DNA of 64,000 bases from assembly GCA_022072055.1 (NCBI GenBank), contig JAJVIK010000002.1:1-64000 (forward strand). The letters are read 5' to 3'. This DNA comes from a bacterium (GTDB taxonomy: Bacteria > Hinthialibacterota > Hinthialibacteria > OLB16). A program made the translations under genes and the position numbers. Of this stretch, positions 15,139 to 38,907 are shown one piece after another. Numbering within the stretch: position 1 is the first letter of the stretch; every line of letters begins with the position of its first letter. A model generated the notes under the pieces. The model ran no database searches. It was not told where the DNA came from and worked only from the letters and a program-made list of their open reading frames with translations.

Positions 15139-15366
15139 ATGTCCGACGCCGCACCCCCGCCTTCCCTCAAGGCCCTTTTCCCAACTCTCAGTGAAGAAGA
15201 ACTCCGAGAAGCCGAGTTCAACCTCCGGCGATACCTCTCCCTGGTGATGGAAATCGTGGAGCGACAGGAGCGAGAGCTTGTGGATAACTCGTTTGACGAA
15301 CCGCCTCGCAAAACGGTAGCTTCGAAGCTCTTCTCTTCAGAAGAGAATCAAACCTCTTCCTCATGA
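15139..15366 (+). CDS. Small protein preceding the serine recombinase
   Basis: The product is 75 residues, acidic and helical, with a pattern LSEEELREAEFNLRRYLSLV seen in small genes that accompany large serine recombinases. It overlaps the recombinase start by 4 bp (ATGA at 15363-15366), so the two are translationally coupled. The function is unknown; it may regulate or assist recombination (inference). The ribosome binding site is weak. Confidence 0.6.
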   Translation: MSDAAPPPSLKALFPTLSEEELREAEFNLRRYLSLVMEIVERQERELVDNSFDEPPRKTVASKLFSSEENQTSSS

Positions 15367-16892
15367 AAACATACGCGGGATACATTCGCGTCTCCACCGC
15401 CAAGCAAGGCGAGAAAGGCGTGTCGCTTCAGGAGCAGCGCTCCGCGATTGAAGGCTACGCCGTCCGGAACAACCTGGCTGTTTCCGAATGGTTCGAGGAA
15501 CGGGAGACGGCGGCCAAACGGGGACGGCCCGTGTTCAATGAGATGCTCACTCTGCTTCGGAGGCGGAGACTGGACGGCGTCGTAATCCACAAAATCGACC
15601 GCTCCGCGCGCAACCTCAAGGACTGGGCGGACATCGGCGACTTGATCGATTCCGGCGTGGAGATTCACTTTGCGGGGGACGCGCTCGACCTCAACACCAG
15701 AGGCGGACGGCTTTCAGCGGACATTCAAGCGGTCGTGGCGGCGGATTTCATTCGCAACCTTCGGGAGGAAACGCGCAAGGGCATGTACGGGCGACTCAAG
15801 CAAGGCTTGTATCCTCTTGCTGCGCCGCTCGGATATTTGGACGGTGGGAAGGGAAAGCCCAAAGAGATTGACCCGGCGCGCGCCCGGCTCGTGCGATACC
15901 TCTTTGAGCGGTATGCCACCGGGAGCCATAGTCTCGACACGCTGGTGGTGGAAGCACGACGGATCGGTTTGACCAACAGGCGCGGGGAGCCACTGAAACG
16001 CTCCGCACTTTCGCTGATCCTCAAGAACCCTTTCTACATCGGCGTCCTCAGGATGGGGCCAGGGGGAGAAGTCTACCAGGGAGTCCATCAGCCGCTTATC
16101 TCCCGGCGTCTGTTTGAAACCGTCCAAGAGATTCTAGCTGGCAGAGTCCGCCATGTCACCTTTGCTCACCCATTCCTCTTCCGTGGCCTCCTCACGTGTG
16201 GCGTGTGCGGAAGGCTTCTCACCGGAGAACTACACAAAGGCCACGTCTACTACCGCTGTCACAACCGGAGCTGCGTCGAAAGGGCTTCAGCCCGAGAGGA
16301 AGAGGTTGAGAAGTCTGTTCGCGGCCTCTTGGCTCAAGTTCAGCCCACGGATGCGGAGATGGAAGTGATCCTCAAGCTGATCGCTCACCTACGGGCTGAG
16401 TGGAATGAGGAGCGAGACAAGCGAAGGGATCAGCTCCGTCTGCAGCTGGGGCAGGCCAAGATACGACTTGACCGGCTCATTGATTCGCACCTCGAAGGAT
16501 TGCTCGAAGATGGAGTCTTCTGCCGGAAGAAAGCCACGATCCTCTCCGAGATCAACCGCCTGGAAGAGGACTTAGCCGCATTGAAGGACGATTCCGCCAG
16601 TTCCATCGCCAAACTGGAAAAGTGTTTCGAACTCGCGAAAACGGCTCTGTTGACCTACGAATCGGGAAACTCTGACGAAAAACGGCGTTTGGTGGAAATC
16701 GCCAGTTCGAACCGGAGGGTGTTCGGGAAAAACGTTGTGGTTGAGCCGTCAAATCCGTTTCAGCTGCTCATGAATCGACCCCCCGTCCGGTCAAGGGTCC
16801 TTGAACCGAACCCAGTTAGAACTTTGTTGGAGTGGTTCACGTCGAAGGAGGGACTCTTGTTCGATCTCAAGATGGAAGAACTCGGGTTGTGA
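15363..16892 (+). CDS. Large serine recombinase (site-specific integrase), copy 1
   Basis: The product is 509 residues. The N-terminal resolvase domain begins YAGYIRVSTAKQ, with the catalytic Ser at residue 11, followed by the resolvase Arg cluster (HKIDRSARN). A recombinase domain follows (PLGYLDGGKGK to KNPFYIGVL), then a zinc ribbon (LTCGVCGRLLTG with YYRCHNRSC), and a long coiled coil near 340-420. Large serine recombinases integrate and excise elements at attP/attB sites. The gene has no good ribosome binding site of its own and probably relies on coupling to the upstream small gene. Nothing gene-like was seen in the 200 bp after it. Confidence 0.92.
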   Translation: MKTYAGYIRVSTAKQGEKGVSLQEQRSAIEGYAVRNNLAVSEWFEERETAAKRGRPVFNEMLTLLRRRRLDGVVIHKIDRSARNLKDWADIGDLIDSGVEIHFAGDALDLNTRGGRLSADIQAVVAADFIRNLREETRKGMYGRLKQGLYPLAAPLGYLDGGKGKPKEIDPARARLVRYLFERYATGSHSLDTLVVEARRIGLTNRRGEPLKRSALSLILKNPFYIGVLRMGPGGEVYQGVHQPLISRRLFETVQEILAGRVRHVTFAHPFLFRGLLTCGVCGRLLTGELHKGHVYYRCHNRSCVERASAREEEVEKSVRGLLAQVQPTDAEMEVILKLIAHLRAEWNEERDKRRDQLRLQLGQAKIRLDRLIDSHLEGLLEDGVFCRKKATILSEINRLEEDLAALKDDSASSIAKLEKCFELAKTALLTYESGNSDEKRRLVEIASSNRRVFGKNVVVEPSNPFQLLMNRPPVRSRVLEPNPVRTLLEWFTSKEGLLFDLKMEELGL

Positions 16893-17093: not shown

Positions 17094-17759
17094 TCACCCC
17101 TGCTCTTTCGGAAGCATATTAAGAAGGTCGGAGAACTTCTTCCCGTGCTTGTACAGGTCGAGAATTATGTTTCGCCAGTTTTGTTCCTCCTCGTCCTGAT
17201 TTCCCCTATCAGGCCAGTATTGTTCAAAGGAATCGTCATTGAGGATAGCGGGGAGTGCCTCTTTTACAACGCGTGGCAATGAGTCCGGCTGATAGTAATG
17301 GCAGAGTTCATGACGGATCTTGGCGTTGCGGTGAAGGTGGTTGGTAAATAGCGGTGCGGTAAACCAGGGAGACACCGTATCCTTATAATCGTATGGGTAA
17401 ATGTCGGTCCTTACCAAGTAACACGTCAAATCCGGTTCAATGAGCGACACCCCATAGAACTGGCCAAGTGTTTCGTAAAAATGATCAGAAACATTTCTCC
17501 AAGATCGTTCGATAAACGACACTTGACTTAGCATGAAGCGGGAAGCTGGGTCCGGCACTACCTCAAGGATCTGTTCGCGGAATTGATCCAACTGGCCATG
17601 ACCTTTAGTTGGAGCCATTTTCGTCTCAAATACGAATGCTTCGATATCCGAACTATATGTAAACCGTATCACACATGAATTGGTGGCGACATTCCACTCA
17701 ATGTTGTGATTATAACATAATAATGAAAAGGAGGGTACGACTTCGTATCCCTCCTTCAT
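17094..17759 (-). CDS. HExxH protein next to a RiPP-like precursor (candidate protease)
   Basis: The product is 221 residues from the ATG at 17759; a TTG at 17780 would add seven residues. A single clear motif, IRHELCHYY, gives H-E-x-x-H, the core of zinc metallopeptidases, roughly 150 residues in. There is no signal peptide or membrane segment, so it should act in the cytoplasm. Outside the motif I do not recognise the family. It is the third gene of the operon radical SAM protein, 44-residue peptide, HExxH protein, beginning 33 bp after the peptide stop. By analogy with other RiPP loci it could remove the leader peptide (inference). It could instead be a non-catalytic partner, since a distant third zinc ligand is not obvious. 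Confidence 0.75.
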   Translation of the reverse strand: MKEGYEVVPSFSLLCYNHNIEWNVATNSCVIRFTYSSDIEAFVFETKMAPTKGHGQLDQFREQILEVVPDPASRFMLSQVSFIERSWRNVSDHFYETLGQFYGVSLIEPDLTCYLVRTDIYPYDYKDTVSPWFTAPLFTNHLHRNAKIRHELCHYYQPDSLPRVVKEALPAILNDDSFEQYWPDRGNQDEEEQNWRNIILDLYKHGKKFSDLLNMLPKEQG

Positions 17760-17792
17760 CCCATCGGGAACTTTCAGCAATCGAAACGGCGA

Positions 17793-17927
17793 TTAGCTGT
17801 AGTCACCTGGGTCATCGCTCGTGCAATCATCAGGGGGCGCGGGACAATCGTCTGAAATAATCGCTGAGAGCCCCTTGGGAAGATCCTCCGGAATCTCTTC
17901 AGACACCATCAGGGGAAGATCCGTCAT
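17793..17927 (-). CDS. 44-residue Asp/Cys-rich peptide, candidate RiPP precursor
   Basis: A short gene read directly from the sequence: ATG at 17927, TAA at 17793-17795. An excellent ribosome binding site (AAAGGAGGTGA) overlaps the last codons of the radical SAM gene, which ends only 3 bp upstream. The N-terminal half (about 1-25) is an acidic, hydrophobic-patterned leader-like stretch with LPKGLSAII. The C-terminal 20 residues contain Cys28 and Cys35, each preceded by Asp-Asp, then a third Asp-Asp at 38-39 and a final PGDYS. Radical SAM/SPASM enzymes commonly modify such peptides, and two Cys could form thioether links. Precursor status is inferred from position, size and composition. Confidence 0.75.
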   Translation of the reverse strand: MTDLPLMVSEEIPEDLPKGLSAIISDDCPAPPDDCTSDDPGDYS

Positions 17928-17930
17928 CAG

Positions 17931-18965
17931 TCAATCACCTCCTTTCCTTGAAATGACATCATCTGGATGAAACACGGTCCATAGAACTGGGCACGAGCCG
18001 CCGCATAGTCCGTAATATGAACACTCCTTGCATTCTGAGGAAGGATATCTGGAAAGCTGATTGTAAACATCCAATATAGCAGGATCTTCCAAGAATGATT
18101 GAAATTCGGTTAGAGTGGTGAAGTCGGTCCCATATTTTCCTATCGGATAGGGGAAAAGGTGGTTGCAGGAAAGCACAGATCCGTCGGTATCGAAGACCAA
18201 GCCATTCCTGCGAGAAACCATGCAGCCTGATGAAAGGACTTGTTTTTGCATGAGGAGAGGGATATATTCTGCTGGCCATGCACAGAACGGATAACTGCTT
18301 CGAAGGAAAAGTTTTCCGTCAAGAATGTCTGCTGCCTCCAAGTACAGACTACTAATCGTTGATAACATGTGCCTCAGTTCGGACCAGGAATAAGCAGATT
18401 CCCATTTGCCGGAGGTGAACGTGGGGGTATATAAACTGAGATGCAATCGGTCACCACCAAGCTGTTTGGTGAGGGAAGCTGCATCGATAATATTGTGATC
18501 GTCGGGATGGCAGACAAAGGTTATAGTAGAATTCGGGAAAGTGAGGGCCTCTCGAATTCCCTCCAGCATGCTTTCCCATTGCCGCTCGGCGTGAGTGCCA
18601 ACAACTCGCCCTCTACTGGAAGCCTTGAGTGAAAGTCCAGTACGGCGAATTGAAAATTCTCGGTACTGGCTTCGAAAGGACTGATCAGAAAACCTCAGTC
18701 CGTTTGTGACCATCGAAATAGGGACTCTCCCAGCGATATATTCGTTGAAGTCACGAAGGAACGGCCACAAAGTCGGTTCACCGCCGATCAAGATGAGTTC
18801 ACGTGCGCCAACATCAATCGCGAGGTCAGCCAGTGAGCAAGACAAGTCGAGTGGCATCGGCGAAGAGCCTTGCTGTGCTCCTTTGGAATAGCACCATTCA
18901 CAATTCATGTTGCACGAACGATTTACCGTTAGGCAGACGACTCGTGGGAAAACCCTTGGCCGCAT
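17931..18965 (-). CDS. Radical SAM/SPASM protein (peptide maturase-like)
   Basis: The product is 344 residues. I chose the ATG at 18965 because GGAG lies 6 bp upstream and a promoter lies 26-54 bp upstream; the longer frame runs into the previous terminator. Near the N-terminus CNMNCEWC (Cys18, 22, 25) binds the [4Fe-4S] cluster that cleaves S-adenosylmethionine, followed by a GGEPTLWP motif. The C-terminus is a SPASM domain: SSGCMVSR, LSCNH, then CKECSYYGLCGGSC for auxiliary Fe-S clusters. This architecture is typical of enzymes that make sactipeptides, ranthipeptides and other radical-modified peptides. The small Asp/Cys-rich gene directly downstream is the likely substrate. Confidence 0.9.
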   Translation of the reverse strand: MRPRVFPRVVCLTVNRSCNMNCEWCYSKGAQQGSSPMPLDLSCSLADLAIDVGARELILIGGEPTLWPFLRDFNEYIAGRVPISMVTNGLRFSDQSFRSQYREFSIRRTGLSLKASSRGRVVGTHAERQWESMLEGIREALTFPNSTITFVCHPDDHNIIDAASLTKQLGGDRLHLSLYTPTFTSGKWESAYSWSELRHMLSTISSLYLEAADILDGKLFLRSSYPFCAWPAEYIPLLMQKQVLSSGCMVSRRNGLVFDTDGSVLSCNHLFPYPIGKYGTDFTTLTEFQSFLEDPAILDVYNQLSRYPSSECKECSYYGLCGGSCPVLWTVFHPDDVISRKGGD

Positions 18966-18990
18966 GATGATCTCCGATGTACTGAGAAGG

Positions 18991-19019
18991 ATTGTACCAC
19001 TTGAAGGTTTGAGTGACAA
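18991..19019 (-). promoter_or_regulatory. Sigma70-type promoter of the radical SAM/peptide operon
   Basis: On the minus strand TTGTCA (19019-19014) and TACAAT (18996-18991) are spaced by exactly 17 bp, 5 of 6 consensus matches each. Transcription would begin near 18984, 20 bp before the radical SAM start codon. It lies just after the terminator of the preceding gene, so the operon is independent. Confidence 0.7.
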
Positions 19020-19030
19020 ACACGATTTCA

Positions 19031-19060
19031 GCAAAGACCCAGCCCTCATCAGGCTGGGTC
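19031..19060 (-). terminator. Rho-independent terminator after the Cas4-like nuclease gene
   Basis: On the minus strand a perfect 9-bp stem (GACCCAGCC with GGCTGGGTC) and a 7-nt loop follow the stop at 19072; a short T-tract (TTTGC) comes next. It separates the nuclease operon from the radical SAM operon. Confidence 0.75.
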
Positions 19061-21790: not shown

Positions 21791-21879
21791 CCAGGCGGAG
21801 CGATAAACGGAGGGTCAAGGCACTGATTCAGACATACTCCCCAGGCTTGTAGATTAAGAGAGGCTTGCGACACTGGGGG

Positions 21880-23082
21880 ATGAACCCCAACGCCGACAAC
21901 CCGGTGACCTATTTCGCGCGCACCAACTTTCGTGGGGAAGGGAAACTTTTCGGTATCAAACAGCGCGACCGGCTGGCGCATCTATATGTCATCGGGAAGA
22001 CCGGGACCGGGAAATCCACGCTGCTCGAAACCATGATGAAGCAGGACTTGGAGCGCGGGGTCGGTTTCGCCCTACTTGACCCTCATGGGGACTTGGTGGA
22101 GCGCGTCCTGGCCGCCGTCCCCGATCACCGGAAGGCGGACCTGATCTACTTCAACGTTCCCAACCGCGAACACCCACTCACGTACAACCCGCTGGAACGG
22201 GTTCCATCCGCCAAGAAGTCGCTGACGGTCTCCGGTCTCCTGGAGGTTTTCCGCAAACTCTGGCCGGAGTTCTGGGGACCGCGCTTGGAGCACATCCTCC
22301 GGAACGCGCTGCTTGTGCTTCTGGATCAACCCGAAGCCACGCTCGCCGACGTGCTGCGCCTGTTTGACGAGAAAGCCTATCGCCACGAGGCGGCGGCGCG
22401 ATCACCCAACGCCCAGTTGCGGCGCTTCTGGCTCAAGGAGTACGAATCGTACCCCGCGCGGTTGCGGGCCGAGGCGATTGCTCCAATTCAAAACAAAGTT
22501 GGGGCCTTTCTCGCCGATCCCCTCCTTGCCCGAATTCTCACACAGCCCAAGAGCGACTTCTCACTGCGGGAGGTGATGGACGGCGGCAGGGTGCTCCTGG
22601 TCAACCTGGCCAAGGGGAAGATCGGGGAAGACAACGCGCGGCTGGTGGGGGCCCTGCTCGTGGCCGGGTTCCACGCGGCGGCGCTGAGTCGGGGGGACAC
22701 TCCGGAATCCGAACGGCAGGACTTCTTCATTTATTTGGACGAATTCCATTCGTTCGCTACCGGGACGCTGGCCTCCATGATGTCGGAGCTGAGGAAGTTC
22801 CATGTTGGGCTTGTGCTCGCCCATCAGTTCCTCTCGCAACTCGATCCCTTGGTTCGAGATGCGATTCTCGGCAATACCGGAACGATCATTTCATTCCGGC
22901 TCGGACCGGCGGACGCGGAGTTTCTCGCCAAAGAGTTCTTCCCGGAGTTCAGTCCCGAAGATTTCACCCGGCTCCCCAACCAGGAGGTGTACCTGCGTCT
23001 CTTGATCGACGGGAGGGTGTCGAGGGGGTTTAGTGGTAAGGTCGGGACCAACGGGAGTGGAGGACAGACCCCCCTCCCATAA
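21880..23082 (+). CDS. VirD4/HerA-like DNA-pumping ATPase (type IV coupling protein-like), short form
   Basis: The product is 400 residues from the ATG at 21880; a TTG at 21865 is an alternative. The Walker A is VIGKTGTGKSTLLE (about residues 42-55), followed by ALLDPHGDLVERVL, a segment typical of this family, and the Walker B region is FFIYLDEFHSF. There are no transmembrane helices. It is homologous to the central part of the 1053-residue protein at 45514 but lacks that protein's N- and C-terminal extensions. These ATPases move DNA in conjugation or pack it; without relaxase or channel genes nearby the job here is uncertain. Confidence 0.85.
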   Translation: MNPNADNPVTYFARTNFRGEGKLFGIKQRDRLAHLYVIGKTGTGKSTLLETMMKQDLERGVGFALLDPHGDLVERVLAAVPDHRKADLIYFNVPNREHPLTYNPLERVPSAKKSLTVSGLLEVFRKLWPEFWGPRLEHILRNALLVLLDQPEATLADVLRLFDEKAYRHEAAARSPNAQLRRFWLKEYESYPARLRAEAIAPIQNKVGAFLADPLLARILTQPKSDFSLREVMDGGRVLLVNLAKGKIGEDNARLVGALLVAGFHAAALSRGDTPESERQDFFIYLDEFHSFATGTLASMMSELRKFHVGLVLAHQFLSQLDPLVRDAILGNTGTIISFRLGPADAEFLAKEFFPEFSPEDFTRLPNQEVYLRLLIDGRVSRGFSGKVGTNGSGGQTPLP

Positions 23083-24296: not shown

Positions 24297-24483
24297 TATA
24301 GTAGCGTAGTCATCGGGGACCGTCTTCAGTTGAGTTCCCGGTCTCTTGACACCAAAAACATTGGAAAAGATGAATTGTCTTCGAAGGAAGCCGAACCCCG
24401 ATGTCCAGGCCAATGGACAGGATTTTGTCACTGCGCTACGTTCGGGTATCTTACATCGAAACCGTATGTGGGTTGAACTTTTT

Positions 24484-25677
24484 ATGACGCGCTCCGACAC
24501 ACCTTACCAATTTGTGAGCCTGTTCTCGGGCTGCGGCGGTTTTGATTTGGGGCTGGTTGATGCCGGGTTTGTTCCTGTGCAAGCCTACGACAGCTGCGCC
24601 GACGCAATCTGCCATTATCAGCGGAATGTTTGCTCAAAGGCTGTACAGGCGGACCTTACAGAATTCATGCCTCAGATTGACAGGACTCCTGACATTGTCA
24701 TTGCAGGGCCTCCATGCCAAGGCTTTTCGACAGCAGGGAAGCGGGACTTGGCAGACGAAAGGAATCACCTGCTTCCCCTCGCGGGAAGGATCGCAGCGCA
24801 CATCAATCCAAGAGTCATTGTCATCGAGAACGTCACCGCAGCGGCGTCTGGTGCTCATCTGAAGTATTGGAAAGAAATGGAAGAGCATTTGCGGTCGAAG
24901 GATTATCGTACCCACACATTGAAAGCTAATGCGGCAGATATCGGGCTCTCCCAAACCCGCAGGCGGCTTCTTCTTTTTGCCTGGCGAACTGCGCGAGATA
25001 TTGACTTCCAAATTCATGCCAAGCCAAGCAGGCGATTGGATGTAACCTTGAGCGGAGTGGAAAAATTGCCGAACCACGATCCCGAGCCGCTCGCAGTTGA
25101 TTCCCGTGACTACCGTATTGCTTGCCGCATTGGCCCTGGCCAAAAGCTTAGCAATGTCCGAGGCGGTTCTCGGTCTATACACACTTGGAACATCCCAGAA
25201 GTCTTCGGCAAAACCACGGCAGCAGAATGCCAAATGCTGGAGTTCATCATGCGTGTCCGCAGACAGGAGCGACGCCGTACGTTCGGCGACGCCGACCCCG
25301 TTTCTGTGGCTAGATTGAAGAAGCAGTTTAAAGAACAAACCACCCCACTCATCCAAGCCCTTTTGCACAAAGGCTACCTGCGGCGAGTTGGCACCGATCT
25401 CGACCTCTGCCACAGCTTCAACGGTAAATACCGCCGCTTCCAGTGGGACGACAAGGCCTGCACGGTCGACACACGGTTTGGTGAGGCACAGCTTTTCCTT
25501 CACCCGAATGAACACCGCCCTTTCACCGTGCGCGAAGCCGCCCGCATTCAAGGCTTCCCGGACGACTACGTGTTCGATTGCACAAAACGCACCGCATTCC
25601 GTCTGATTGGCAACGCTGTCCCTCCACCGATGGGTAGGATGGTCGCAGGTTTTGCCAGGGAACTTCTTGGAAGATGA
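24484..25677 (+). CDS. C5 cytosine DNA methyltransferase
   Basis: The product is 397 residues from the ATG at 24484; the frame is open further upstream. The methyltransferase motifs are in canonical order: SLFSGCGGFDLG (I, about residues 12-23), GPPCQGFS (IV, with the catalytic Cys near 78), VIENV (VI), QTRRRL (VIII), then REAARIQGFPDDY (IX) and GNAVPPPM (X). Motifs VIII and IX are separated by a target-recognition region of about 190 residues. It transfers a methyl group from SAM to cytosine C5. Its stop overlaps the next gene by 4 bp. In this operon it probably marks self DNA while its partners act on unmarked DNA (inference). Confidence 0.93.
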   Translation: MTRSDTPYQFVSLFSGCGGFDLGLVDAGFVPVQAYDSCADAICHYQRNVCSKAVQADLTEFMPQIDRTPDIVIAGPPCQGFSTAGKRDLADERNHLLPLAGRIAAHINPRVIVIENVTAAASGAHLKYWKEMEEHLRSKDYRTHTLKANAADIGLSQTRRRLLLFAWRTARDIDFQIHAKPSRRLDVTLSGVEKLPNHDPEPLAVDSRDYRIACRIGPGQKLSNVRGGSRSIHTWNIPEVFGKTTAAECQMLEFIMRVRRQERRRTFGDADPVSVARLKKQFKEQTTPLIQALLHKGYLRRVGTDLDLCHSFNGKYRRFQWDDKACTVDTRFGEAQLFLHPNEHRPFTVREAARIQGFPDDYVFDCTKRTAFRLIGNAVPPPMGRMVAGFARELLGR

Positions 25678-26720
25678 GCGCCCGCGATCTTATTCTCGAA
25701 ATGGTCACGGCTTGGCAGGACGAGCTTTCTGATCAGGAAGCGTCCGCTCGGCTGAGTTGCATCCTTGCCGACCTCCGCTTCCTCGAACGCACTAAATTCA
25801 ATACCTACGTACCCACTCTCTATTCGCGCCATCCATCCGTATTTGCGGAACGGTTCCACAGCTGGCTCAACAATCCAAACCTCACCTCAGCCGAGAAACG
25901 CGACCTGTTCGAGTTCACCCACTGCATCGCGTTCTTCTCCTTTGATGATTTTGTGGCCATGTTCCAGAACGCCTTCTCTGGACCGATCAGCCGTTGGTGC
26001 ATGAGCCACGCAGGCATTTGCCTTACACAAACGGGTTGGCAAGACCTGCTCAATGAGGAGCGCTTCAATCACACTTGGTTCTGTCCCATCACCGACAGCC
26101 TCCTCATCAGTGTCTTTCACCATGTCAATGGAATCGAAGGGAAAGAACGCAAACCGGCCTTCCGCGACCTGAAGCACTTTGGCGATGTAGAGAAGATCCG
26201 CAAATACATCGACCAACAGAAATACAAGAGAATCGTGCTCCTAGAGGACTTCGTCGGCACCGGCATGCAATCCGAGGCGACAGTCGAGTGGGCTGTCAGA
26301 ACGCTCGATCTCCCAGTGATGTTCTGCCCGATGATCATCGCCACCGAGGGCGCAGATCGGTATCGCAGTCTGAAGGCAAAACTGGACGCGGCAAGGCCTG
26401 GGCTCCCCGATCTCCCGGAGTTCAATTTTAAGCCTGTTTTCGAACTAAGCAGCGATTGCTTCGTCTACTCTTGCGATACGCCACAGGATTCGCTATTTGA
26501 TCGGGTTCGCAAAATGGCCGAAGAGATTCATACCCGACTCTGCAAGTCGCAGGAGGAGTGCAAAGAAGGGGCTCTTGGCTATTGGAATGACGACTCGCCT
26601 CAGAAGGGAGCCACCGTGATCATGTTTTCCAACACGCCGGACAACTCTTTGCCGCTTTTCCATCATGGTGCTGGAGCATGGAAACCGCTTTTCCCCCGAG
26701 TGGCGCGCCAACCCCTATGA
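25674..26720 (+). CDS. PRTase-like (PRTase-CE type) protein of a predicted conflict system
   Basis: The product is 348 residues. Around residues 188-205 IVLLEDFVGTGMQSEATVE matches the phosphoribosyltransferase-fold signature in which two acidic residues and a GTG turn bind PRPP. The N-terminal half is helical; the C-terminal part is of unknown fold. Proteins of this kind (PRTase-CE) have been predicted as conflict-system components together with ORC/CDC6-like ATPases. The gene overlaps both neighbours by ATGA. It may act as an effector or nucleotide-dependent sensor (inference). The family assignment rests on the motif and the neighbour. Confidence 0.7.
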   Translation: MSARDLILEMVTAWQDELSDQEASARLSCILADLRFLERTKFNTYVPTLYSRHPSVFAERFHSWLNNPNLTSAEKRDLFEFTHCIAFFSFDDFVAMFQNAFSGPISRWCMSHAGICLTQTGWQDLLNEERFNHTWFCPITDSLLISVFHHVNGIEGKERKPAFRDLKHFGDVEKIRKYIDQQKYKRIVLLEDFVGTGMQSEATVEWAVRTLDLPVMFCPMIIATEGADRYRSLKAKLDAARPGLPDLPEFNFKPVFELSSDCFVYSCDTPQDSLFDRVRKMAEEIHTRLCKSQEECKEGALGYWNDDSPQKGATVIMFSNTPDNSLPLFHHGAGAWKPLFPRVARQPL

Positions 26721-28855
26721 AGCCTTTCCTTTCCAACCCGTTCACTGAAGCATACGTGACTCACACGGTCTCAGGCGAGCACTTCGTGAGGTTCTTCAGC
26801 CCAGTGCTTGTGGCGTCGGCGGGTGCAATTCTTCAGTCCGGGAATGTCGTGATCAAGGGAACCCAAGGCTCCGGAAAAAGTATGCTCCTGCGGCTCCTCG
26901 ATCCCGAGATCCGAATAGCCTATTTCAAGGTCGATCCAGAAGAAAGGTCGACGGAGACCCGCTTCCCGATTTCGCAAAATCTCCGCAAATTCATCTCCAC
27001 ACGAGTGGACCTTAACAAGAGTGGATTGCTCGACATCGCCAACACCCTGCCCAGCGAACCGTCGTCGGATGACATAGAAGATTTGGCAAAGTCCTTTGCA
27101 GACTTCTTCAATTACTGGCTGTTACGCGGCTTACTGATCTGCATCGACACTATTTGCGAGAAGCCGGAGGCGTTCGTCAGCTTGATCCAGGCCGACCACA
27201 AGGATGCATTCGCTACGGAGCTCGCAGCCCAGGACTGTTGGTTTGACTTCCTTTCCACCGTCATCGACTGGGAGAGCCTCAAGCGTAAGGTCAAGGACAG
27301 GGTGATCGCCTACCGGGCTTGGGCGAACGGCAATCGGGATCTTCCAGATTCGATTCGCAAATCGCGAACGATGATTGGCGAACCGCTAGCCCGAGCCTCA
27401 GGGCAACTAAAATTGTCCGGCGTCATTTCGGAGGCAACCAATGTCTTCGCAACCATCGATCAGATCGAAGCCCTGTGGATGCAAGGCCAAGGCAAGCGCG
27501 CACTCGGACAACGCCTCCGCAATGAACTCCACGAAGTGCTTGGCAAACGCGATGACCGCGTCTCCTACCGCATTGGGGCACGGCGCTATGACTGGGGCAA
27601 AGGCGGCTCCCTCGCCATGCGCGACGGTCGCCAGCTTGAAGAGGGCAGAGACTACCAAGTCTTTGACATCGATGCGCTGCTGAGACGCGGTGAATACGCC
27701 AAGAACTGGACTTTCCGCATATTAGCCAAAGATGTTTTTAAAAGGCGTGTTCAAACCACCTTTCCCGATGCTGCGGAATTACCGAAGGACCTGCACAAAC
27801 CCGAGCAGTTCTTCGGTCCCTCACCAACCCCGCAGGAGGTTGTCGCCGAAGCCATAAAAAGGCCCGAGTTTGAGAAGTTGATCAAACTGGATTCCGAGTG
27901 GCCCGAGGCATGGCGGGTCGAAATCAAGAAGGTTTATCATAAAGAGTTGACTGGCATTCCTCAGCCGTCACCGGAGCATTCTCCTGTCGATCCCCTCAAC
28001 GCCCTTCTCCTCGCTGCGTGGGGCCTGCAAACAGAGGGAAAAGGCAAAGCAAAGGAGCGCATGAATCGCGCACGACTTAATGCACCCCAATCCACCGACG
28101 AAGCGCCTTGGAACTCGGCTAAAGTGTATTGGCGCAAAGAGCGCTACCCACAGGCAGTTCTGCAGTTAGTGTCTCGCCATCAACAAAAAATGCTTTGGTG
28201 GGGTGAGTCCAAGGTGCTCTCCCTCTGCGGCAGCAACATCCTCCAATATATCACGATATGCCGCTTTACGTGGGATTATTGGCAGCGCCTCACCGATGGC
28301 ATGCGTACGCCCCAAGGTCAGCGCAAATGCATTGTCCCCGCGCAAATTCAGTCACGTGCGGTCCTGGAAGCCTCGCGAAAGGTGTACGAAGTGCTGATGC
28401 GACAGCCAGGTCAACCAGCGGGCGATGTGCGCAGCCGCTTCCTCAACGAAGTAGCATCTTGGCTGCGCGCCGGGCTACTCGATGACAAATCCATGTCCAA
28501 TCCCGGCCAGAACGGCTTCTCCTTGCGGGTCAGTGAGTTGGAGAGGAACGAGGCCCTTCGCCAGCTCATCGAGGAGGCTGTCGGATGGGGCGACCTGTAC
28601 GAGATGGATCACACCTCGAAGATTAAGTCTGAGCACGCTAGCGAGCCGCGCAAAAAATACTACATCAACCCTGCGCTCTCACCCTTCTACGAGCTTCCGG
28701 AAGCCCATACCAAGGAACCCGTCTATGCCAAGATTGAGGACATTTTGAAACTCGCTAAAGCCGCGGGTGTGTTGCCCAAGGAAGTCCCGGACAGTATTGC
28801 GTCGTCACCAATGAAAGACCCCAACCAAGCCTGGCTTTTCCCCGAAGTAATATGA
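26717..28855 (+). CDS. ORC/CDC6-like P-loop ATPase
   Basis: The product is 712 residues from the ATG at 26717, overlapping the preceding stop (ATGA). The Walker A is KGTQGSGKSMLLRLL (about residues 47-61). After it comes a region with DPEERSTETRF and a helical ATPase lid-like segment. The long C-terminal part is mixed helical, with a winged-helix-like segment near 560-640, and has no membrane segment. This resembles the ORC-CDC6-like ATPases that partner PRTase-CE proteins. It probably provides the nucleotide switch that recognises invading DNA and controls the PRTase-like partner (inference). The Walker B was not certain by eye. Confidence 0.7.
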   Translation: MKPFLSNPFTEAYVTHTVSGEHFVRFFSPVLVASAGAILQSGNVVIKGTQGSGKSMLLRLLDPEIRIAYFKVDPEERSTETRFPISQNLRKFISTRVDLNKSGLLDIANTLPSEPSSDDIEDLAKSFADFFNYWLLRGLLICIDTICEKPEAFVSLIQADHKDAFATELAAQDCWFDFLSTVIDWESLKRKVKDRVIAYRAWANGNRDLPDSIRKSRTMIGEPLARASGQLKLSGVISEATNVFATIDQIEALWMQGQGKRALGQRLRNELHEVLGKRDDRVSYRIGARRYDWGKGGSLAMRDGRQLEEGRDYQVFDIDALLRRGEYAKNWTFRILAKDVFKRRVQTTFPDAAELPKDLHKPEQFFGPSPTPQEVVAEAIKRPEFEKLIKLDSEWPEAWRVEIKKVYHKELTGIPQPSPEHSPVDPLNALLLAAWGLQTEGKGKAKERMNRARLNAPQSTDEAPWNSAKVYWRKERYPQAVLQLVSRHQQKMLWWGESKVLSLCGSNILQYITICRFTWDYWQRLTDGMRTPQGQRKCIVPAQIQSRAVLEASRKVYEVLMRQPGQPAGDVRSRFLNEVASWLRAGLLDDKSMSNPGQNGFSLRVSELERNEALRQLIEEAVGWGDLYEMDHTSKIKSEHASEPRKKYYINPALSPFYELPEAHTKEPVYAKIEDILKLAKAAGVLPKEVPDSIASSPMKDPNQAWLFPEVI

Positions 28856-30110: not shown

Positions 30111-33100
30111 TCACCCCACCCAATCCACACACAACAGACTCGCCTGTTCCAGCACGGTCTGCGTCGCCTTCTCCTGCATATCGGGCGGATAGCCGTACTT
30201 CTTGAGGATGCGCTTGACCATGATCCGCAGGCGGGCGCGGACAGCTTCCCGCTCCGTCCAGTCGAACGTCACGTTCCTCCGAATCGCGTCCACCAGTTCT
30301 TTGGCGATGACCTTCAGCGTTGGCTCCCCAAGCACCTTGACGGCGCTGTCGTTCACTTCAAGGGCATCATAAAAGGCGAGTTCATCCTCGGTAAGGTCTA
30401 ATTCGTCCCCGCGCTTAGCGGCTTCCCGCATGTCGCGGGCGAGTTCGATCAGTTCTTCGATGACCGCCGCCGTTTCAATGGTACGGTTCTGGTACTTCCG
30501 AAGAGATTGTTCGAGGAGACCGCCGAATGAGCGTGATTGAATGAGGAACTTCCTCTCGCGCACCTTGAGTTCGTTCTGCAGGAGTTTCCGGAGGAGTTCC
30601 ACCGCGAGGTTCTTGTGCGGCATATCCCGGACCTCGGCAAGGAAGTCTTCGGAAAGAATTGAGATGTCCGGTTTCTTGATTCCCGCTGAGGCGTACAGGT
30701 CGATCACTTCATCGGAAGCCACCGCGCGGGAGATAATCTGTCGGATCGCGGATTCAATCTCATCCGCCGACTTGGCTTTCCCTCGTTCCTCTCCCTTGGC
30801 GAGCGCCGACCGTACGGCTTGGAAGAATCCCACGTCGTCACGAATTTCAAGCGCCTTCTCGTGCGGCACCGAAAGCGCGAACGCCTTGGACAGTTCCGTG
30901 ACCGCCTGGAGGAATCGCTTCTTGTAGTCGTCTGGGGTCGAGTCCTTCCGGGAGTTCTCCAGAATATGCTCCTGGGCGGCGGCGAGCAGCGACACCTGCT
31001 GACCGGCGTTGGCCCTTGCCCAGCTGCTCCAGTCGAAACCATGGAAGAAGTCCCTGCACACTTCGTACTTCTCCACCATAATGGCGACGGCCTGGTCCTG
31101 ATCGATCGCGGTCTCCCCGGCTCCCCCGCTTTCGGTGTAGGTCGCGAGCGCCTGCTTCAGTTCCGGGGCGAGGCCGAGGTAATCGACGACCAGACCACCC
31201 GGCTTGTCGCGGAACACGCGGTTGACTCGGGCGATGGCCTGCATCAACCCGTGACCACGCATCGGTTTGTCCATGTACATCGTGTGAAGGCAGGGCGCGT
31301 CGAACCCGGTGAGCCACATATCTCGGACGATCACGATCTTGAACGGGTCTTTCGGGTCCTTGAACCGAGCGGCTAGGCCGTCACGCCGGGGCTTGTTGCG
31401 GATGTGCGTTTGCCATTCAATTGGATCCGGAGCCGCACCGGTCATCACGACCTTCATCACCCCCTGGGCGTCGTCTTCGTCATGCCATTCGGGGCGGATG
31501 CGGCGGAGGGCTTCGTAGACCTCCACGCAAATTCGGCGGCTCATGCAGACAATCATGGCTTTCCCATCGATCACTTCGAGCCGTGTCTCCCAGTGCCTCA
31601 CTAGATCCTCGGCGATCAGCCGAATCCTTCGGTCCGAGCCGACGATAGACTCAAGCGCCGCCCACTTGGTCTTGAGCCGCTCCTTGTGAGCCATTTCTTC
31701 GCCTTCGGTGGCCTCTTCGAAGTCGCGGTCGAGATTCGGTTTCTCCGCTTCGGCCAGGGCCAACTTGGCGAGGCGGCTTTCATAAAAGATCGGAACGGTG
31801 GCCTTGTCTTCCACAGCTCGTTGAATGTCGTAGATGCTGATGTATTCTCCGAACACGGATCGAGTGTTGGCGTCGGTCGATTCAATCGGCGTCCCGGTGA
31901 ACCCGATGAACGAGGCGTTCGGGAGGGCGTCCCGCATGTGGCGGGCGAACCCGTCGATGAAATCGTACTGGCTGCGGTGGGCTTCATCGGCGATCACCAC
32001 GATGTTCCGCCGATCCGACAGGAGCGGATGCTGTTCGCCTTTGCCTTCCGGGAAGAACTTCTGCACCGTAGTGAACACGACTCCCCCGCTAACCACCTTG
32101 AGGAGTTCCCGGAGGTGGTCCCGATTCTCGGCCTGCACAGGTTTCTGGCGCAGGAGTTCGGCGCACCGGGAGAAGGTCCCGTGAAGTTGGCCGTCGAGGT
32201 CGTTCCGGTCCGTGAGGATCACCAGCGTCGGGTTCTCCATCTTCGGTTCCACCACCAGCCGCCCGGCGTAAAACGCCATGGTGAGCGACTTGCCGGAACC
32301 CTGGGTGTGCCACACCACGCCGACGCGCTTGTCCCCGGTCGGGAGCGAAGCCCGGACGGTTTCCTCGACCGCGTTGCTGACCGCGTGGAATTGGTGGTAC
32401 CCGGCCATCTTCTTGATCAGGGAACCGTTGTTGGGGTCTTCTTCGAAGACGATGAAATGACGGACCAGGTCGAGGAAGCGCCGTTTGTCGAAGGCCCCGC
32501 GCAGCAGTACTTCCAGTTGCGGCAGAGAAGCGGGGGCGAGGGTCTCACCTTCAATGGTGCGCCAGGGCATGAACCGCTCCCGGTCGGCGCTGATCGTGCC
32601 GACGCGGGCTTCGAGGCCGTCCGAGACGGCGAGGATGGCGTTGTAGGTGAACAGGGAAGGGATCTGCTGTTTGTAGGTTTGCAGTTGATTGAACGCGGCC
32701 CAGATGTCCGCGTTCTCGTCCGCCGCGTTCTTGAGTTCGATCACTGCGAGGGGGAGGCCGTTGACGAAGACGACCACATCGGGTCGCCGGTTGTGCCGAC
32801 TCTCGATCACGGTGAACTGGTTGACCACGAGCCAGTCGTTGGCGTCGGGATCGGCGAAGTCCAGCAGTCGAACAATCTCCGCGCCGACGCTGCCGTCCTC
32901 GCGGCGGCATTCGACGGCAATCCCGTCGACCAGCATCTTATGGAAGGCGCGGTTGTTGGCGATCAAGGAGGGAGACTGCGGGACGGTGATCTTCCGGACG
33001 GCTTCCTCAAGGGCGGCATTGGGGACCTGCGGGTTGAGCCGGCCCAGGGCGATCCAGAGGCGGTTGTTGAGGACCACATCCCCAAACCCGGTCCGCTCGG

Positions 33101-33209
33101 CGTGAACCTCCCCCGGCGCGATCTCCTGACCGTGGACCGCCACATAGCCCAGTTCGCAAAACCAGGAAAGGGCCGCTTCTTCAACGGTGGATTCGGTCAA
33201 TGGGGCCAT
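30111..33209 (-). CDS. hsdR: Type I restriction endonuclease subunit R
   Basis: The product is 1032 residues, with GGAAGG 5 bp before the ATG. The N-terminal nuclease domain has [21 protein letters not shown] split as a D-x(n)-ExK site (about 135-160). The helicase core follows: [14 protein letters not shown] (Walker A), [10 protein letters not shown] (DEAH box), FIGFTGTP (motif III) and later [14 protein letters not shown]-type motifs. HsdR translocates and cuts DNA in complex with HsdM and HsdS. It lies 133 bp downstream of an IetAS-type pair, at the end of the minus-strand restriction locus. Confidence 0.95.
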
Positions 33210-33342
33210 TATTTCCTTCCAATGTGAGGCCTTTGGGGTTCAGAGTCAAATCGAGTCTTGGGACCGTCGTAACCCTTTCTCCCGCTTTTATTTATTTCAT
33301 GCTCCACAACAATGAAAAGAGAGCATGGTTGCGTCCTCCATA

Positions 33343-35919
33343 TCAACGTCCCTCCCTTGTGCGAATCTCGACGGCGGACGCTATACGGGTGCGAATTTCT
33401 TCATAGATGGCAATGTCGATACCCTCAGCGACCTCAAGGGTCACTGCTAGTCCGTAAGCGACGGGTTGTTGAATGCTCGCCGCATCTTTTCTGCAATTGA
33501 CTTTGATCGTCAGGTTGGCGTCGTCAGTGATCGCGAAGGCTCGGTCGCCTTCAAATACCTCGTGCTGCACTGTTCCCCGTCGAGATGCTTTTGTGTCAAC
33601 GTCGGCACGACTTGTCGCAATGGCGCTGCCATCCACCTCGAACCACAATCCGGCAGAGCGGTAACGCTGAGTCCTCGCCGCAACTGGAGACATCCAGGCC
33701 AAGGTGACCGTAAGTCGCCGCCATTCACGGCGCGCACCAAGCGAGGGAGGCAGGGGCAAAGAGAAGAGATGTGCTTCTTCGTCGCCAAGCTGACCGAAAC
33801 CAAGCAACGTCGCGCGCTGTTCGGTACAAGACAAAACACGATTACTGTCAGGTACGCCGTAACCCAACCAGCGGCTGATCAAACTCCGAACCTGGTGTCC
33901 GTTGTTCGGAGTTTGAAGAATGGCACGAAGTCGATCTGCTATCTCACCCCAGGAACAACCATGAATCACCATAGCCTTCAGAAGCGGTGCCAAATACGGT
34001 CTCAACTCAATATCGGGTGCCTGCTCCTCGAATATCTCAAGCAGCGCATCGTGGCAGGATGCGGTCATTCGGGAAACCAAAGCGGCGGCATTGCTGGTTC
34101 CACAGCAGTAGGCGACCTTGGTCAGGTCTCCGGAAACGGCACTCGGGGAAGCCACTTTGTTTCCAGGTGCAATTCGCATGCGCCGTGCTTTGAAGGTCGC
34201 ATCGACAGTGGTTCCGAGCGGCTCTGTGTAGAGAAACCTGCCCCCGTTGAAAAGGAGGTCGGGCTTAACGGCTCTGCGATAGCCACTTCCAAATGGCGAA
34301 ACGGGACTTGGCAGCAGACTTTCGAACAAGTTCACCGCATAGTCCATGTTAGGCACGGTTGCCGAATCATGGTGAAGTGCGCCTATGGTGAGGCCATTGA
34401 TGCTTTCGCCGGGAGAGAGCATCTTCCGGTGCCGCGCATCCTCATAAAGCGCCTTGACGACTCGAGCTTCCTTCTCGGTAGTCGTCAGCGCATCGAATTC
34501 AGTCTTCGACATGCGGGTTTCGATGTCATCCGGATGGTTCCCCGCACTGATGACGAAAAGAACTCCATACTGGATACTCAGCCAATCGAGGAGTCGGGCC
34601 AACGGACTCAACGCTTGAGTGAACTGCCGACATGGGTCGCCAATGGAGAAGTTGATGATGCGTACAGTTGGTGCCGCAGGATCGGCCGTCCCTTCTCCCT
34701 CGAATATGCGGCGGACGGCCCGGTGAATGTAATCGACCACCAGCACATCATCTGGAATCTGCTCCGGACGGGGCGAATCAATCCATGGGATGGGCTTCAT
34801 GATCGGACGCACGTAAACAGGGCGAGCCAGTGGTGGCGCGTCATCGCTCAAGTCCCCGCAGCAAACCAGGGAGGCCATTGCAGTTCCATGCATCCGATCC
34901 GCAACGGTGTACTCAGAGGCATAGTCGTCCGGGTCGTCGATAATCAGGCGGTTTTCAAGTAATCCATGATTTGCCAGAGGCAGGCCATCAAGAATCGCAA
35001 CCACAGGGTCGCCTGTTGGGAGGGGGGCCGCTCCTATGTCATGATCCAACAATTCGCCCTTAATCGGGTTCCTTCCAGTTGCCATTTGGCCAACCGGCCT
35101 AAAAAACATTACGCTGTCGCACTTGATCAAGTCAACTTCGGGGTGATCGATAATCTGTTGGGCGGCATTGCCTGGAATTTCAGCGAGTAAGGCGTGGTAG
35201 GCAATATCAGCGATGGTGCAGTTGCCCAATAGTGATCCGCCAAGCTCTTCGATGAGCGTCTGAACTTGCCCTTGAGCATTCTGGCGCTTTTCGTCCGCAC
35301 CTCGGAACCACAATTCGACCTCGAAGCGGATGGCGCGTCTGCCATCGTGTTCCAAATCCTCGTGCCAAGCAGCGAGCACACCCGTTTCCTCGATCCGATC
35401 TTGAACTCCCCACCGGCGGATATCCTTGAGACACAGAAACACTTCGCGGAATTTGGTAAGCCCACGCTCGAATGTCATATTCGGATCTGCTTGATATCGG
35501 TGCCATAGCGAGAGCATCTCAATCAGCGCCCGATGATTTGTCATGACGAGATAGAGTCGCCCGCTAAGCTCCCTGTTTGCATTCTGTGTGTCGTAGAAAT
35601 CCTCGTCGGGCGCGATTTCGTCATTTTCCAATTCGGCCATCCATTCAAGTCCGGGAATCCGCCTTACAGCGTTTGCGAAATTCTCGACGCCGCCAACCGT
35701 TTCAATCACCAGCACCTGCTCTGGATCGGCTCCTGCTGCTGTCTGCTGTAACTCCACGCGCCGTGCATTAAACTCGGTTTGAAGCTGAGTAAAAATCGGA
35801 GAAAGTCGCTGTCCTTGCCTGTCAAGAGACGGCCTGTGGATGCGCGGAAAGCCAGGCGGCCGCCGGGACCAGTCGGCGGTTTCGGGAGTTGGAAACAGCA
35901 ACAACGGATGTTCCGCCAC
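33343..35919 (-). CDS. ietS: IetS-like subtilase (serine protease) of an IetAS-type defence pair
   Basis: The product is 858 residues with a GTG start at 35919, one base overlapping the stop of the AAA gene, and GGAGG upstream. The subtilisin catalytic triad is present: VVAILDGLPL (Asp), MHGTAMASLV (His) and CCGTSNAAALV (Ser), between about residues 290 and 640. There is no signal peptide, so it acts in the cytoplasm. The pairing of an AAA ATPase of about 330 residues with a cytoplasmic subtilase matches IetAS, an anti-phage system first noticed as a plasmid incompatibility locus. The symbol is by architecture, not alignment. Confidence 0.85.
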   Translation of the reverse strand: MAEHPLLLFPTPETADWSRRPPGFPRIHRPSLDRQGQRLSPIFTQLQTEFNARRVELQQTAAGADPEQVLVIETVGGVENFANAVRRIPGLEWMAELENDEIAPDEDFYDTQNANRELSGRLYLVMTNHRALIEMLSLWHRYQADPNMTFERGLTKFREVFLCLKDIRRWGVQDRIEETGVLAAWHEDLEHDGRRAIRFEVELWFRGADEKRQNAQGQVQTLIEELGGSLLGNCTIADIAYHALLAEIPGNAAQQIIDHPEVDLIKCDSVMFFRPVGQMATGRNPIKGELLDHDIGAAPLPTGDPVVAILDGLPLANHGLLENRLIIDDPDDYASEYTVADRMHGTAMASLVCCGDLSDDAPPLARPVYVRPIMKPIPWIDSPRPEQIPDDVLVVDYIHRAVRRIFEGEGTADPAAPTVRIINFSIGDPCRQFTQALSPLARLLDWLSIQYGVLFVISAGNHPDDIETRMSKTEFDALTTTEKEARVVKALYEDARHRKMLSPGESINGLTIGALHHDSATVPNMDYAVNLFESLLPSPVSPFGSGYRRAVKPDLLFNGGRFLYTEPLGTTVDATFKARRMRIAPGNKVASPSAVSGDLTKVAYCCGTSNAAALVSRMTASCHDALLEIFEEQAPDIELRPYLAPLLKAMVIHGCSWGEIADRLRAILQTPNNGHQVRSLISRWLGYGVPDSNRVLSCTEQRATLLGFGQLGDEEAHLFSLPLPPSLGARREWRRLTVTLAWMSPVAARTQRYRSAGLWFEVDGSAIATSRADVDTKASRRGTVQHEVFEGDRAFAITDDANLTIKVNCRKDAASIQQPVAYGLAVTLEVAEGIDIAIYEEIRTRIASAVEIRTREGR

Positions 35920-36917
35920 TATTCATCGCCTCCATTTTGCTGCTTTGTCTTGACCGTCCGCGAAGCCCAGTTCTTCAGGTTGCGATCCACAATTTTCTTC
36001 ATGTCGGAGTTGGGCTGTTCGAGAACGTACTGCCGGAAGACACTTGCCCCGAACTCTTCAGCTTCGGCGAAATTGACGCCGAACAGCCTTTTTGCCATGG
36101 TCTCAGGCGTGTAGCCGAGCGGTACCTTGACCCGCTTTTCGAACTTGGCGAACCATTCAGCAAGTCGGGCGCGTGTAGGCTCGGGCAATGTCATGCGAAC
36201 CTGGAACCGTCGCCATACGGCACGGTCAAGCAGTTCGGCGTGATTGGTTGCCGCGATGACAACGACGTGGCTCGGCAGTGCGTCAATCTGCATGAGTAGC
36301 GAGCTGACCACGCGCTTGATCTCGCCCGTCTCGTGGCGGTCGCCCCGCTCCTTTCCCAGCGTTTCGAATTCATCAAAGAACAGAACGCACCTCCGCGTGC
36401 GGGCGTGCTCCAAAAGACGATGCAGCCGAACTGCTGTTTCTCCGAGGTAGGTCCCGATGACGCTTTCGTAACGGACAATCAATAGAGGAACCATCAAGGC
36501 ATGAGCAAATGCCTCGGCAAGGGAGGTCTTTCCATTGCCTGGCGGGCCGATCAACAGCACGCGGTTGCGTGGTTCAAGGTTGTATGAGCGCAACAGGTCT
36601 AACCGATGATGCTCCTGGACGACATCTCTCGAAATCTCGCATACGTCTTTGGGCAGAATAAGGTCGTCGAACGATCGTTCGGGCATGACCTCATGAAGCA
36701 GGTTAGACACTTTCTGCTCAAGCACGGCGCTTCCGCCATTCGGGGCTGGCCTGTCCGCGGGTATGGCGCGGAGTAAGTCCTCCAACCTTTTCGCAAGGAC
36801 GGTATGCTTCTTCGCTCTTTCTTCGGCGATAATAGCCTCAACCACTTTTCGTAGCCTGACCTTGTCTCCAGACATACCGAAGCGGACGAGGTCGGTTAGT
36901 AAGTCGGCTCTAGCCAT
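35919..36917 (-). CDS. ietA: IetA-like AAA ATPase
   Basis: The product is 332 residues, with GGAG 6 bp before the ATG. An N-terminal helical region is followed by an AAA core: LIGPPGNGKTSLAEAF (Walker A, about residues 122-137), CVLFFDEFETLGKE (Walker B) and a sensor region with VIAATNHAELLDRAVWRRF, which carries arginines of the second region of homology. This is the FtsH/katanin-like AAA type. It likely forms a ring that controls or feeds the subtilase encoded immediately downstream. It follows hsdS by 21 bp, suggesting co-transcription with the restriction genes. Confidence 0.85.
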   Translation of the reverse strand: MARADLLTDLVRFGMSGDKVRLRKVVEAIIAEERAKKHTVLAKRLEDLLRAIPADRPAPNGGSAVLEQKVSNLLHEVMPERSFDDLILPKDVCEISRDVVQEHHRLDLLRSYNLEPRNRVLLIGPPGNGKTSLAEAFAHALMVPLLIVRYESVIGTYLGETAVRLHRLLEHARTRRCVLFFDEFETLGKERGDRHETGEIKRVVSSLLMQIDALPSHVVVIAATNHAELLDRAVWRRFQVRMTLPEPTRARLAEWFAKFEKRVKVPLGYTPETMAKRLFGVNFAEAEEFGASVFRQYVLEQPNSDMKKIVDRNLKNWASRTVKTKQQNGGDE

Positions 36918-36938
36918 GGTCTGCTCCGCTCATTTTCA

Positions 36939-38201
36939 TTAGGCGACCTCATAGTTCTGCATCGTTGTGCGCACGTCTAGCTCGCCGGAGAGAAGTTGGG
37001 GCAACAGCTCATCCCTCACCGCTGCAAGGTTTCGGGATTCCTCACGATTGCGATGAGCCTGTTCGTAGAGAGGTCCGCACATTTGATGGAAAACTTTCGC
37101 AACCTCTGGCATTTGGGGGAACACGACCTGCCACTTCCCGATGGTCTCTGGAGAAACGGCAGGGTAAGCCCCACCGTCTGCCTGATGGCCAAGGTGCTCG
37201 AATAATTCAGGCAGAGTGAGAGCCGAATGGATGAATGACCATGGCGCAAGTCTCGGTGTGATCACTGCAAAGCCGGTTGAAGCGATCAGAGAAGGCGAAG
37301 GATGTAGGCACAAGAAATATGAGCCGCGGTCGGGCCGGACCGTAGACAAGACCGTGTCCCCATGCCGAAGAATGCGCCGAGCACGACTTGGTTCTGCGCC
37401 GCGCTGGTAGATTTGGATGGCCCCGATGTTCCCTTGTGATACGGCGGAAATCTCTACGTACTCAATGGTCTCCAGTTTGTCTGCCTTTCCAAGCGTCTTA
37501 GCGTTGATCTCGGCCAAGTCTGAAATTGTCCCAACCCCCCACCCCTCCGGGATGTCCCCGATCTCCGAATCGACGAGGCGGTCCGGGAACAGCGCGGCGG
37601 TTTCGGAGTCCATGCCGACGGGGGGGCGGCCTTCCATCTTGGCGCGGACGGGATCGAAGTCCACGAACCACGACTTGAACAGGGCTTGCGCCATCGCCTC
37701 CAACGTCTCGTTCATCCGCCGGTTGTTCTCGATCTTGTCGTCCAAAGTCCCCAGGATGTGCGCAATGGCCCGCTGCTCGGCCAGGGGGGGAATCTCGCAG
37801 GGGAGATGAGCGAGTTGAGGATATGACACATTCGGAAAGGTGGAGCCAGTCGCGTGAGCAAGCAATTCTGGAAGACGGTAGTCGATAATCCCACGAAGAA
37901 ACGGCTGAAACTCAACTCCCGCTTTGTGTCGTATTGCCGCTATTCCACGCCCAATAGCGTAATCGCGATCCGCCCAGTTCATCCTTCCTGTCGTTGATCC
38001 ACGGACACAGAAAAGTATGTCCCCTTTGCGAGCTCGTTTCTTGACCTGATTTGTGAACTGAACTGGGTATGGATGAGATGGACCAAACTCTGTGGGACCG
38101 TTTAAGAGTGGTGTCCCCTCTCCGAATGTATTACACGATTCGCCAGGGGGAGACTGACCCATGGTAATAGTGGCTATTGAACCAAGGGAGTCTGTAATCA
38201 T
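36939..38201 (-). CDS. hsdS: Type I restriction specificity subunit S
   Basis: The product is 420 residues with two target-recognition domains and two helical spacers. The first half ends with PLAEQRAIAHILGTLDDKIE and the second begins after ALFKSWFVDFDPV, with SEIGDIPEGWGV introducing the second recognition domain. HsdS reads the two halves of a bipartite DNA target and bridges HsdM subunits. Its start overlaps the NYN gene stop by 4 bp (ATGA), so it is translated with that gene. This placement of a nuclease ahead of hsdS is not the standard hsdMSR order. Confidence 0.93.
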   Translation of the reverse strand: MITDSLGSIATITMGQSPPGESCNTFGEGTPLLNGPTEFGPSHPYPVQFTNQVKKRARKGDILFCVRGSTTGRMNWADRDYAIGRGIAAIRHKAGVEFQPFLRGIIDYRLPELLAHATGSTFPNVSYPQLAHLPCEIPPLAEQRAIAHILGTLDDKIENNRRMNETLEAMAQALFKSWFVDFDPVRAKMEGRPPVGMDSETAALFPDRLVDSEIGDIPEGWGVGTISDLAEINAKTLGKADKLETIEYVEISAVSQGNIGAIQIYQRGAEPSRARRILRHGDTVLSTVRPDRGSYFLCLHPSPSLIASTGFAVITPRLAPWSFIHSALTLPELFEHLGHQADGGAYPAVSPETIGKWQVVFPQMPEVAKVFHQMCGPLYEQAHRNREESRNLAAVRDELLPQLLSGELDVRTTMQNYEVA

Positions 38202-38833: not shown

Positions 38834-38846
38834 ATCGAACCCCCTT

Positions 38847-38891: not shown

Positions 38892-38907
38892 AGTAAGTGA
38901 TACCTGA

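Follow-up and report, generated by a model that had tools for sequence, protein, structure and literature searches.

A radical SAM/SPASM enzyme, a small Cys/Asp peptide and an HExxH protein in a putative RiPP module

Do a radical SAM (rSAM)/SPASM enzyme gene, a 44-codon gene and an HExxH open frame that lie side by side on one strand make up a RiPP system, and what would such a system do? The three are found in a stretch of bacterial DNA of 64,000 nucleotides, analysed here as a whole (the window). A preliminary description had read them as a compact RiPP-like locus. We found the rSAM gene, the 44-residue peptide and the HExxH frame where that description had placed them, and the core of the RiPP interpretation is supported. 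On the minus strand, a promoter-like site is followed by the rSAM/SPASM gene, the 44-codon gene and the HExxH open frame. The features of the region are:

19036-19060, minus strand: intrinsic-terminator-like hairpin closing the upstream PD-(D/E)XK nuclease gene (RNA fold z -3.9)
18991-19019, minus strand: sigma70-like promoter, TTGTCA-17-TACAAT with extended TG (10 of 12 matches)
17931-18965, minus strand: P0001, predicted rSAM/SPASM peptide maturase, 344 aa (above cut-off for PF04055 and TIGR04085)
17934-17946, minus strand: 13-nt perfect Shine-Dalgarno sequence within the last codons of the maturase gene (match to the 16S 3' end)
17793-17927, minus strand: P0002, predicted precursor peptide, 44 aa (leader MTDLPLMVSEEIPEDLPKGLSAIIS, core DDCPAPPDDCTSDDPGDYS)
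17728-17756, minus strand: intrinsic-terminator-like hairpin directly 3' of the peptide gene (RNA fold z -4.1)
17709-17717, minus strand: extended -10 element TGTTATAAT just 3' of the terminator, which may serve the HExxH gene as promoter (read from sequence)
17094-17672, minus strand: P0003, HExxH protein, about 192 aa from the likely GTG (open frame reaches 17780)

The genes had been described as one operon, driven by a strong sigma70-like promoter and isolated by a terminator. The terminator-like hairpin upstream is present (GACCCAGCCT-GATGA-GGGCTGGGTC, with TTT after it). The promoter is a good match, but in a promoter scan sites as good as this one were no more frequent than chance (2 found compared to 2.1 expected). 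A single operon that includes the HExxH gene was rejected because of an internal terminator, the hairpin at 17756-17728, which sits between the peptide gene and the HExxH gene and is followed by the extended -10 element. Since this strong hairpin and the -10 element precede the HExxH gene, the three genes, as judged from sequence, are not simply on one shared transcript, and the HExxH gene would be a neighbor with reduced or separate expression. Hairpins are found at the equivalent place, 3' of the peptide gene, in most of the relatives described below, and the order of hairpin and then HExxH gene is also found in L139, L142, L128, L130, L132, L153 and L155. The HExxH protein probably starts at the GTG at 17672 rather than at the TTG at 17780, because that is where its homologues begin, and because the structure model of the longer version leaves the first 34 residues unfolded.

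The cassette was probably acquired by this bacterium, because the P0001 gene was present in this genome only, among 14 sampled genomes of its phylum. GC content in the cassette segment (0.46-0.49 compared to 0.59) is the lowest of the region, and the segment adjoins a gene for a large serine recombinase (15363-16892). Conflict genes, among them type I restriction and a cytosine methylase, populate the surrounding stretch, which looks integrative. Positions 15363-50256 of the window contain two large serine recombinases and two TrwB/HerA-like ATPases (21865-23082 and 45514-48675), and this part looks like an integrative element with defence cargo. The cargo comprises a subtilase, an AAA ATPase, NYN, patatin and metallo-beta-lactamase proteins, a cytosine methylase and type I RM (30111-40627). 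PRTase-CE and ORC-CDC6-like proteins, which are adjacent conflict-system families, are encoded at 25674-28855 beside a cytosine methylase (24346-25677).

Direct searches of genomes, viral contigs, phages and plasmids revealed no close homologue of P0001. Two matches on actinobacterial plasmids (22-25% identity) were discarded, as their neighbors differ, and distant rSAMs diverged too far for their mixed alignment to serve in scanning. A first scan of viral contigs with the DNA motif CNxxCxWCY plus GGEPT yielded one true relative, L039 (33% identity, E 3e-60), which opened the real family; most of the other matches were to an unrelated phage rSAM family. In L039 the ATG of a Cys/Asp/Asn peptide gene overlaps the stop of the rSAM gene, and this rSAM had no match in phage or plasmid records. 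When 85,000 genomes were scanned with the refined motif WC[YF]...GGEPxLW, 32 loci came up, of which 23 were relatives. Profile searches gave further relatives, and 31 loci were analysed altogether.

The 18 relatives that we aligned are 27-33% identical to P0001. The relatives as a whole come most often from Patescibacteria lineages, and also from Nitrospirota, Verrucomicrobiota, Thermodesulfobacteriota and Bacillota. The distribution is sparse: approximately 1% of sampled Patescibacteria carry the family. One family member is on a viral contig. Large serine recombinases are encoded within a few kb of both element-borne cassettes (L059:10186-11745, a viral contig, and the window, 15363-16892), which suggests that cassettes are carried on integrative elements. 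Separately, the rSAM family at L035-L058 (except L039) is widespread on phage contigs, lacks the SPASM Cys cluster, and has the motifs QHVSNFYHRGTLGNNN...CNMxCxWCYYPMG, GGEPT and SMQHPKNY.

We found a small Cys/Asp-rich peptide gene beside all 31 family rSAMs; such recurrence had been proposed as a check on the preliminary description. By a fixed rule (30-90 aa, three or more Cys, start no more than 60 nt from the stop of the rSAM), a peptide was directly 3' of the rSAM gene in 22 of the 31 loci compared to 2 of 27 control rSAMs, 10 of 97 further genes from these loci and 6.5% of shuffles, controls that cover peptides starting at the rSAM stop. The other nine had their peptide nearby. P0002 itself fails the rule with only two Cys, and in eight further loci a similar peptide, picked by eye, is convergent, upstream or after the HExxH gene. 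The ribosome binding site of P0002 had been called excellent, and it is: GAAAGGAGGTGAT (17946-17934) matches the 16S 3' end of this genome perfectly over 13 nt, and this match is unique in the 64 kb, where the next best is 10 nt.

The peptides have a common leader pattern, M..LLxxLxxTGxIPxxxPTG[LI]. P0002 scored 7.6 bits against a leader profile built without it, a score reached by 3 of 4000 shuffles, in agreement with the leader-like N-terminal half that had been noticed. The core varies greatly in sequence and in Cys number (2-10 overall; 3-10 in most relatives, two in P0002). Among 26 non-redundant peptides, Asp preceded Cys 41 times in the cores, compared to 24.7 ± 3.6 expected from shuffled cores. 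Lys was also enriched directly before Cys, and Ser and Gly were avoided there. The Asp-Cys pattern is a family-wide trait, and the repeated Asp-Asp-Cys of the window peptide is therefore an instance of it. Four close peptides from related genomes align over their full length, with pN of 0.15-0.22 and pS, near saturation, of 0.68-0.87. These peptides are under purifying selection, and the small frame is conserved as protein by the synonymous-site check. In this locus, a small precursor gene with a leader and a variable core adjoins a modifying enzyme, as looked for in RiPP loci.

P0001 has the rSAM motif CNMNCEWC (C18, C22 and C25) and scored above the cut-offs for Pfam Radical_SAM (PF04055; 40.3 bits, cut-off 29.5) and SPASM (TIGR04085; 35.8 bits, curated cut-off 27). 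The claim of full cluster motifs holds to this extent, but the complete seven-Cys SPASM motif is not present: the usual last Cys is missing. In the family alignment C248, C267, C312, C315, C321 and C325 are invariant, and none of the Cys beyond C325 is conserved among the 19 aligned members. C228, upstream of this set, is near-invariant. There are 27 invariant columns in the 19-row alignment, including CxxxCxWCY, GGEPxLW, C248, C267 and CxxCxxxxxCxGxC, and SxK stands where SxDG is common. In a quick tree with outgroup rSAMs the family is one clade (SH-aLRT 99). The AlphaFold model of P0001 (pLDDT 86) best matched RiPP or peptide maturases in the PDB: SuiB, anSME, TigE, SkfB and CteB. No NCBIfam equivalog that fits P0001 was found. 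A viperin-type antiviral role was rejected, as the PADLOC pVip matches span the generic core only.

We think it likely that these genes form a RiPP module. The conserved, IPxxxPTGL-like leader of P0002 would be the part that P0001 binds, and the C-terminal Cys/Asp core the part that P0001 modifies with its radical SAM and auxiliary SPASM clusters. The likeliest product would be a ranthipeptide-like thioether that connects a Cys sulfur to a side-chain carbon of a nearby Asp; C28 and C35 are candidates, with D26/D27, D33/D34 and D38/D39. P0003, expressed separately or more weakly behind the terminator, would come next: most likely it would be a zinc peptidase that cuts the leader off the modified peptide, or else it would modify the peptide further. 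We infer the substrate relation, the type of bond, the protease role and the biological role from sequence.

Thioether formation at the Asp-Cys sites is our leading guess and not a result. It comes from the Cys/Asp cores together with known Cys-Asp/Glu thioethers: those made by PapB have been demonstrated (PMC9413430), and the rSAM/SPASM enzyme QhpD joins Cys to Asp or Glu (PMC8172795). The Asp-Asp-Cys pattern had been said to match no familiar RiPP class, but because PapB, in freyrasin, and QhpD do Cys-Asp chemistry, it is not without precedent. Some observations count against our reading. P0002 has two Cys, fewer than most relatives; C35-D39 is the one pair in it with the CX3D spacing of PapB; and across the family it is in front of Cys, not behind it, that Asp is enriched. 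It is quite possible that P0001 makes some other modification (epimerisation, a Calpha thioether, a C-C cross-link or Cbeta chemistry before Cys) and that the product is not a Cys-Asp ranthipeptide. Asp (and Lys) enriched directly before Cys, and not at the CX3D spacing, would fit such a product, as would the few Asp in some cores (L141, L152 and L155), and rSAM/SPASM enzymes have many chemistries. On the other hand, Cys is the most consistent feature of the cores, Asp is by far its commonest neighbor, and the best known rSAM fate of Cys is a thioether.

In the proposed RiPP module, P0003 would be the third partner. A same-strand HExxH protein of 95-330 aa was encoded within 1 kb of the rSAM gene in 19 of the 31 loci compared to 6 of 57 control genes, so the trio of rSAM, peptide and HExxH protein is real. 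No HExxH neighbor was seen in 12 of the 31, which counts against the proposed module, although some of these contigs end early. P0003 has the motif HELCHYY followed by KEALPAIL. The HExxH is invariant in the 19 proteins, and most have a downstream KE, 12-25 residues away in a subgroup. The BLAST homologues of P0003, from L130 (E 7e-6) and L146 (E 9e-4), surfaced only through the rSAM neighborhoods: when P0003 alone was the query, 193 genomes, phages, plasmids and the PDB gave no match. Its model, which is mediocre (pLDDT 69), matched no PDB fold.

P0003 could instead be an alpha-ketoglutarate (aKG)/iron hydroxylase or an oxidative cleavage enzyme that acts on core Asp, within the same RiPP module. 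In RiPP loci, HExxH proteins fused to or beside rSAMs include enzymes that cleave the backbone oxidatively and aKG-dependent Asp/His beta-hydroxylases, with Asp as one possible target (PMC12636437). We keep this role as a candidate because such enzymes are known, and the Asp-rich cores would suit it. One relative weakly matches TIGR04267 (E 0.016, the best of the 19 HExxH proteins), but P0003 does not match it. Other relatives weakly match zinc peptidases (one DUF5700, 7e-6; three SprT-like, 0.003), and the HExxH with a conserved KE resembles the third-ligand arrangement of gluzincins, with the KE of P0003 closer than usual. In addition, M16-type or prolyl-oligopeptidase-like genes adjoin cassettes at L147:2509-3780, L140:984-2207 and L150:5272-7302. 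Two loci without an HExxH protein carry one of these, M16 near L147 and prolyl-oligopeptidase-like near L150 (read from sequence), and they possibly replace or aid the HExxH protein. We consider a hydroxylase or oxidative cleavage role rather unlikely, and a leader protease remains the preferred reading.

The genome of L086 has a second, divergent cassette (L126:1824-3693) in the order peptide-rSAM-HExxH, and its HExxH protein is close to that of L130 (34% identity) though the rSAMs are distant. Three family cassettes have a second, different rSAM/SPASM gene (435-445 aa, CxxxCxHCYN) 1.4-2.1 kb away, at L137:6996-8300, L138:182-1501 and L144:6804-8138, for which no NCBIfam equivalog was found. 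At L137 and L144 this gene directly adjoins another HExxH protein, and a similar HExxH frame is present at L132:2067-3002. The pair is possibly another rSAM-HExxH system.

The lack of a transporter gene that had been noticed in the window extends to the family: none is conserved, and there are three ABC ATPases among 93 neighbors. A role as an alarm or toxin within a defence island had been proposed from this; it found no comparative support, and the neighbors of the cassettes elsewhere are mostly ordinary genes. We think it unlikely that the peptide is a metal-binding or metallophore-like product that the rSAM matures for use inside the cell. CxCxCxC and Asp-rich cores and the missing transporter are consistent with such a use, but the cores and their Cys number vary greatly, the window member has two Cys, and no metal-regulator or metal-transport genes stand out among the 93 neighbors. 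Chance proximity of an orphan rSAM gene to a spurious small open frame, to which the failure of direct searches to find a close P0001 homologue might point, is refuted by the recurrence of the peptide and of the HExxH protein, purifying selection, the Asp-Cys enrichment, the common leader and the unique Shine-Dalgarno sequence, and is highly improbable.

The family is compact: two or three short genes would suffice for cloning it, its leader is clear and Asp-Cys is the candidate site of modification. The HExxH partner may be a protease or a hydroxylase, a question of its own in RiPP enzymology. In addition, a cassette of this kind is carried on an integrative-looking element beside a large serine recombinase. 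Our searches, which covered open literature, turned up little about RiPPs from Patescibacteria, and none of the papers found describes this family.

Several known systems resemble this one in part. Like PapB/PapA, which make the ranthipeptide freyrasin, it has a short rSAM/SPASM maturase (the NF047865 model has 330 positions) and a Cys/Asp peptide. In contrast, P0001 scored 35.8 bits where the NF047865 equivalog cut-off is 340, and PapA has six CX3D motifs whereas the peptides here have a DC-rich core, a different leader and an HExxH partner. QhpD, the maturase of the quinohemoprotein amine dehydrogenase gamma-subunit, acts on an enzyme subunit and not on a small precursor peptide, and P0001 scored 22 bits with its model (TIGR03906), where the cut-off is 453. 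SuiB, SkfB, CteB and TigE are peptide-modifying SPASM enzymes with the closest solved folds to P0001, but they are longer (412-472 residues), are 14-16% identical to it, and have other types of precursor. ChlB/ChlH and their relatives (rSAM with an aKG-HExxH protein, TIGR04267) also combine an rSAM and an HExxH protein in one RiPP locus, but the HExxH protein in our case is separate and short and falls outside TIGR04267, and no cyclophane-type precursor motif was seen. By its genomic traits, the system appears to be an unnamed rSAM RiPP family. More tentatively, it may be an undescribed class of RiPP, in which a SPASM clade with rearranged auxiliary-cluster Cys modifies Asp-Cys sites, aided by a dedicated HExxH enzyme, spread horizontally among Patescibacteria and mobile elements, and making a product that has no dedicated exporter.
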